Program-made: the position numbers and the translations under genes
The notes under the pieces: model-generated
The model's input: the letters and a program-made list of their open reading frames with translations, nothing else
Databases searched by the model: none
What the model was told of the DNA's origin: nothing
In this document: positions 35,251-35,871 of the stretch, in pieces
Layout: every line of letters begins with the position of its first letter
Numbering within the stretch: the stretch's first letter is position 1
Source: Desulfatitalea alkaliphila
GTDB lineage: Bacteria; Desulfobacterota; Desulfobacteria; Desulfobacterales; Desulfosarcinaceae
Assembly: GCF_022968795.1 (NCBI RefSeq)
Contig: NZ_JALJRB010000020.1
Coordinates: forward strand, 1 to 64,000
Reading direction: 5' to 3'
Length of the DNA: 64,000 nucleotides

Positions 35251-35443
35251 GGCTGATTTCCTTTCCGGGCCGTTAACGGTCGCCAAGATGGTGTGCCTCG
35301 GCGGCAAAAGCCATTCATACTACACCGAAGGCAAGGCGTCATGCGCAAATTTTGTTCTTTGCAAGCGTCAAAAGTGTACCAGCAGGGTGTTTTTCCAAAG
35401 ACCGCCTTTTGGATTTTCATTATAAAAACGGAATGCTGGAGCT

Positions 35444-35459
35444 TGGCACGTGCCTTGCT
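35444..35459 (+). promoter_or_regulatory. sigma-54 promoter (-24/-12)
   Basis: TGGCACGTGCCTTGCT at 35444-35459 matches the sigma-54 consensus TGGCAC-N5-TTGCW exactly, with the invariant GG (35445-35446) and GC (35457-35458) ten bases apart. It lies in the intergenic region and points to the plus strand, away from the thioesterase genes. No protein-coding gene follows it on that strand before a terminator. Confidence 0.75.
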
Positions 35460-35469
35460 TTGCCTTCTA

Positions 35470-35785
35470 ATATGTTCAAAGTACAGCCGGCCCCATCTTG
35501 AATGACAGGGGGAGAGAGGCAGGCCGGCGACAACCGCAAGGCTGAAGGCAGGGCGTCACGATGAAAGGCAAACAACATTTTGTGTGGATTGCCGTTATGC
35601 TTCTGGAGTAAACCCGAATTGACGGGGCGGTGGGCCTGCGGCCCCCTCCCGGCAATATCCCCAACCCCGCCGTGAACGGCAGACGCGCTCCGTTCTTGGA
35701 GCAACCGGGCCGTTCACCCCAACCTCCACCCCTTCGCGACACCCGACGCACAGCCGGCCGATGCCGGTTGTGCGTCGGATTTTTT
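35470..35785 (+). ncRNA. candidate sigma-54-dependent structured RNA
   Basis: Between the sigma-54 promoter and a strong terminator lie about 315 bases without a convincing gene. Stems seen by eye are GGGCC/GGCCC (35632-35636 with 35640-35644), a 9-pair stem (35672-35680 with 35709-35717) enclosing a 5-pair hairpin (35687-35691 with 35698-35702), and the 15-pair terminator stem. The largest tidy open frame with an ATG near the start encodes only 16 residues (35561-35611), without a good ribosome binding site. The unit is most simply read as a small RNA made under sigma-54 control. Ends are estimates. No known RNA family was recognised. Confidence 0.55.
35743..35784 (+). terminator. strong intrinsic terminator of the sigma-54 unit
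   Basis: A 15-pair stem (35743-35757 with 35764-35778, one G-T pair) with a six-base loop is followed by ATTTTTTA. The nearest protein genes on either side are on the minus strand, so this plus-strand terminator implies a plus-strand transcript that is not one of them. Confidence 0.85.
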
Positions 35786-35871
35786 ATGGGGCCCGAAAAC
35801 AATGCCCCCCAACGCAGGCGCCTCGGTCCGGCGTTGTTGCGCAGCCAAAGAACTGCTTTAGCCGCACCCCT

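Follow-up and report, generated by a model that had tools for sequence, protein, structure and literature searches.

What does a sigma-54 promoter drive when no intact protein gene follows it? This question is raised by a plus-strand unit in Desulfatitalea alkaliphila that is flanked by minus-strand genes, one encoding an acyl-CoA thioesterase and the other an AMMECR1-family protein, within the 64,000-nucleotide stretch of DNA analysed here (contig NZ_JALJRB010000020.1; hereafter the window). The original prediction, that of a small RNA whose elements all share the plus strand and whose neighbouring genes are on the minus strand, was right about this layout. New regulatory RNAs are considered to arise, among other places, from 3′ untranslated regions (UTRs), but to our knowledge the step from the UTR of a coding gene to an RNA gene is seldom visible, and we know of few small RNAs described in sulfate reducers. 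The features of the unit are as follows.

35341..35381, plus strand: enhancer-like upstream site ATGCGCAAATTTTGTTC, to which GTGTACC adds a second half-site, some 100 nt 5′ of the -24 box
35444..35459, plus strand: sigma-54 -24/-12 promoter TGGCACgtgccTTGCT, an exact match, with a predicted start at about 35470
35486..35528, plus strand: leader hairpin with a purine-rich inner strand (AGGGGGAGAGAGGC), kept in 9/11 genus members
35561..35611, plus strand: 16-codon remnant of a lost DUF5818 open reading frame (ORF), MKGKQHFVWIAVMLLE and a stop, in which WIAVML corresponds in sequence and position to the intact start MKRHRMRWIAVMLVIGF
35659..35787, plus strand: conserved 3′ RNA module of two nested stems, a C-rich linker and the terminator, described by a 128-position covariance model
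35672..35717, plus strand: module stem A (35672-35680 with 35709-35717) around an inner stem (35687-35691/35698-35702), with compensatory changes
35723..35740, plus strand: near-invariant C-rich linker CCUCCACCCCUUCGCGAC (consensus CUUCCACCCCUUCGUGAC), unpaired in the consensus, a candidate base-pairing region
35743..35785, plus strand: intrinsic terminator, a 16-pair stem (35743-35778) followed by T6, with covarying pairs

The -24/-12 element, noted before as exact, was confirmed in the sequence, and TGGCACgtgccTTGCT is the single match within the 64-kb window, where 0.08 are expected; the start was placed by the usual +12 spacing. The pattern TTGGCAYN5TTGCT occurs at 10 sites in the 5.07-Mb genome versus 2 for a reversed-pattern control, and further sites were found 5′ of plausible sigma-54 genes, for instance that of a P-II-like protein. 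A sigma-54 box in the same orientation as the module was present in 11/11 Desulfatitalea genomes (10 loci and G006). The upstream GTGCGCAATTTTYGTA motif, which most genus members carry between -98 and -104 and which recurs in another genus, is a putative enhancer, as expected for the site of a sigma-54 activator. Both features by which we recognize a sigma-54-dependent unit, the box TGGCAC-N5-TTGCW and an upstream site at about -100, were thus found. A sigma-54 activator is encoded at the window's right end; it was considered as the cognate regulator, and no evidence for a link emerged.

The predicted transcript is a 316-nt stretch that folds more stably than its shuffles (z = -3.0; 0/100), and the nested stems claimed for these roughly 315 bases, including the 9-pair stem 35672-35680/35709-35717, are real. 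So is the terminator with its T run on the plus strand, with a stem of 16 rather than 15 pairs. That this hairpin serves the convergent AMMECR1 gene could be ruled out, since the T run is solely on the plus strand. The leader hairpin, compared in an alignment of eight leaders, is absent or diverged in G001 and G003. A pairing between leader and linker (GGGGGAAG/CUUCCaCCCC), suggested by eye, scored no higher than pairings with shuffled linkers.

When 97 related genomes were searched with the region, significant matches appeared in nine further genus members, strongest over the last 130 bases, and a covariance model recovered a tenth, G006, as well as G011, which belongs to another genus. The genus set therefore comprises 11 Desulfatitalea genomes (Desulfobacterota), with the window genome designated G000 and its sister species G004. 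A DNA-pattern scan of a named collection returned seven records, all from Desulfatitalea or from unclassified Desulfobacterales or deltaproteobacterial metagenome-assembled genomes. The covariance models R1 and R2 scored 107-134 bits in 11/11 genus members and up to 90 bits in another genus. In G006, a second and weak module-like match of 22 bits, possibly due to chance, lies just 3′ of a short KH-domain-like protein gene (L116, G006:C41:167683-167808).

The covariance analysis of related genomes that had been proposed as a check revealed base-pair covariation. With ten loci aligned independently by MAFFT, 89% of cells in the three helices were paired, versus 31-46% with slid partners; two-sided changes occurred in 15 cells (0/500 shuffles) and affected 7 pairs, a number reached by 17/500 shuffles. 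When G006 and two G011 copies were added, 18/28 pairs and 42 cells showed two-sided changes (0/500 shuffles, with slid controls far lower), in an alignment that was fitted to the structure and therefore leans towards it. The model that included the G006 and G011 copies matched two further G011 copies that had not been used, with 67.5 and 70.4 bits. The compensatory changes in stem A include GAACGG/CCGUUC versus GGACGG/CCGUCC, and UGGAUUAU/AUAAUCCA in the other genus. No Rfam 15 family scored above the gathering threshold for the region, and sub-threshold matches were at chance level.

The most conspicuous unpaired element of the module is the C-rich linker. Its unpaired probability in the window is 0.80 in the isolated module versus 0.37 in the full transcript, and in most species it is open in the isolated module (0.51-0.92; 0.36 in G003), whereas most full-length folds leave it no more accessible than the average position, a pattern compatible with processing. 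The complement of CUUCCACCCCUUCGUGAC resembles purine-rich ribosome-binding regions, and base pairing in trans is our proposal for how the RNA acts. Hfq was not detected in the 11 genus genomes, while control genomes gave matches, and an Hfq-dependent small RNA was rejected on this ground. When the genomes were scanned for conserved targets with the linker-complement pattern GAAGGGGTGG-N-ATG, matches exceeded the control and mostly differed between genomes, and no convincing set emerged. In the main rival to this proposal, the functional module acts by binding a protein, for instance as a decoy, or by sponging up another RNA. The conserved structures with a G-rich leader and a C-rich linker would suit such a role, as would the undetected Hfq and the missing target set; on the other hand, a known protein-binding motif was not identified, and a near-invariant single-stranded linker fits base pairing at least equally well. 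We consider protein binding or sponging rather unlikely, though it deserves to be taken seriously.

The origin of the unit became apparent from the relatives. In G002, G003 and G007 an ORF of 91-93 amino acids with a signal peptide is located between leader and module and scores above the Pfam cut-off for DUF5818 (PF19135), as does the intact relative P0001; a solved structure for the DUF5818 protein was not found by sequence. This ORF is under purifying selection, with a dN of 0.28 and a dS of about 1.4 for G002/G007 versus G003, and with exclusively synonymous differences between G002 and G007. In G011, five tandem DUF5818 ORFs follow a single sigma-54 promoter, which has the same site upstream and adjoins the same AMMECR1 gene. 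This array (L053:1000-3480) carries module copies after two of them. The module thus forms the 3′ UTR of intact DUF5818 ORFs in G002, G003, G007 and G011, and the terminator is common to mRNA and module. DUF5818 genes behind sigma-54 boxes were also found in more distant family members, and the -100 site is common to DUF5818 genes across the family. Since DUF5818 ORF, promoter and module occur together in congeners and in G011, the ancestral unit was an mRNA that ran from upstream site and sigma-54 box through a structured leader and the DUF5818 ORF to a structured 3′ UTR and the terminator.

In eight genus members the ORF is absent or broken while the module is kept, and the sigma-54 box is retained in each ORF-less species. 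No intact DUF5818 ORF was found in the window, in agreement with the earlier statement that no protein frame fits; what that statement missed is the 16-codon remnant at 35561-35611, left from an ORF that is whole in relatives. The WIAVML match has an E-value of 0.06 in the transcript alone, and the assignment rests on position too. A different, broken remnant is present in G006, and none was found in G004, G001, G009, G005, G008 and G010. A G011 paralogue at a fourth locus, G011:C404, has a sigma-54 box and an intact module; its DUF5818 sequence has decayed and contains stop codons (tblastn E = 2e-4). The ORF was thus lost at least twice, in Desulfatitalea and in the G011 paralogue, and further losses are likely because the remnants differ; their number is uncertain because the species tree is poorly supported along its backbone (supports of 28-72).

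If the protein gene is dead, then promoter, leader and 3′ UTR might simply be leftovers awaiting erasure. Recognizable pieces of the ORF, present in the window as well as in G006 and G011:C404, do point to ongoing decay, and the leader is already gone in G001. To this stands opposed the conservation of the module, which we compared with the rest of the transcript and with fourfold-degenerate sites taken from a neighbouring gene. Between the ORF-less sisters G000 and G004, identity is 88% (ungapped) in the module, 53% in the remaining transcript and 64% at fourfold sites; for G001 and G009 the values are 67%, 39% and 53%. In more distant pairs the fourfold sites are near saturation and uninformative, and G005 and G008 are too close to tell. 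In the ORF-bearing pair G002/G003, identity is 75% in the module versus 60% in the rest. The values in the ORF-less pairs indicate that promoter, upstream site and module were retained after the protein was lost. Together with the compensatory changes and the box in all ORF-less species, they make a mere vestige improbable, and we disfavour it.

Least credible of all, and in our view highly improbable, is a micropeptide or dual-function mRNA in which the 16-codon ORF is still translated and constitutes the product: the frame is hydrophobic and has an ATG with a purine stretch 5′ of it, but it is missing from four ORF-less relatives, sister species G004 among them, the remaining ORF-less relatives have no homologous peptide in common, and the conserved part is the module instead of this frame. 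No shared small ORF or conserved peptide was found in the ORF-less species, so that the test set beforehand, a short conserved protein against base-pair covariation, comes out in favour of RNA in the window.

A sigma-54-controlled non-coding RNA unit is therefore a well-supported prediction from the comparative sequence data, and the conservation of promoter, putative enhancer and RNA tail without the protein suggests that the RNA is functional in its own right. The idea of a sigma-54 small RNA, perhaps new, is upheld by promoter, upstream site and module in 11/11 genomes, by covariation and by the lack of an Rfam family, and needs amendment in that the RNA derives from a DUF5818 mRNA; the unit is better described as a sigma-54 mRNA that is turning, or has already turned, into an RNA gene. 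The best reading, which we hold to be fairly probable, is an RNA-only sigma-54 unit of about 316 nt, formerly a DUF5818 mRNA, with the 3′ module as effector that most likely pairs through its linker. A putative enhancer-binding protein at the -100 site would activate RNA polymerase-sigma-54, and transcription would stop at the strong terminator. The 3′ module (stem A, C-rich linker and terminator hairpin), once a 3′ UTR, would then serve as effector, acting without Hfq and perhaps as a processed 3′ piece, and the linker would most likely pair with purine-rich, ribosome-binding-site-like stretches of other mRNAs. More tentatively, and with about as much to be said against it as for it, the regulator may have been born repeatedly, if a trans-acting 3′ UTR let the ORF go several times in parallel, with selection still acting on promoter, enhancer and RNA.

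Related genomes show intact mRNA, freshly broken ORF, short stump and no ORF side by side, with promoter and module constant, so that it is directly testable whether the RNA was independent of the protein before the latter was lost. If our reading is true, the unit would represent a new RNA family in sulfate reducers, linked to sigma-54 and independent of Hfq. It resembles known transcripts that combine a small ORF with a structured RNA part, as both were ancestrally on one transcript, and differs from them in that the protein is an exported DUF5818 protein lost in most species and that RNA regulation is only proposed. CpxQ is a small RNA derived from the 3′ UTR of cpxP, cut by RNase E with Hfq from an mRNA that is still coding (PMC9438474). 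Like CpxQ, the module stems from the 3′ UTR of the mRNA of a small stress-type exported protein, is conserved above the rest of the gene and reuses the mRNA terminator; unlike the situation with CpxQ, most species have lost the ORF, the promoter belongs to the sigma-54 type and Hfq is undetected (PMC9438474). Pxr of Myxococcus xanthus is, in the part of the literature drawn on here, a small RNA apparently made from a sigma-54 promoter, with multiple stem-loops and a terminator, and it works in myxobacteria, which are reported to be without detected Hfq (PMC5568312). The unit shares with Pxr the sigma-54 promoter (predicted here), the stem-loops with terminator and the undetected Hfq, and differs in its gene neighbours and in having no Rfam match; an ORF ancestry is not reported for Pxr in the sections of that paper concerned (PMC5568312).

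Several further observations were made around DUF5818 genes. At L038:1910-3235, a PAS-domain sigma-54 activator of the NtrC type adjoins a DUF5818 gene and is a possible cognate activator; such a gene was not seen beside DUF5818 at other loci. Repeatedly, the neighbour of DUF5818 is a gene whose product has a Tat-type signal (e.g., MTRRQIMTWGTMGLASW...) and no match in Pfam (L032, L037, L038, L039, L041, L042 and L046). In the other large genus of the family, g4, the sigma-54 DUF5818 mRNAs (L034, L037, L041, L046, L033, L038 and L039) have a different, strongly conserved 5′ leader, ACACACCGUCGGUCGGUUCCGA...GCUGAAGGUUCAGC...GGGUGUGU followed by GGGAGG...CCUCC, which has no Rfam match and is a candidate cis-regulatory RNA. 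Finally, a conserved hairpin with GGAAGGACCCC was found 3′ of the ORFs in L034, L037, L039, L041 and L046 and also in the G011 modules, which suggests that the structured 3′ UTR predates the genus.
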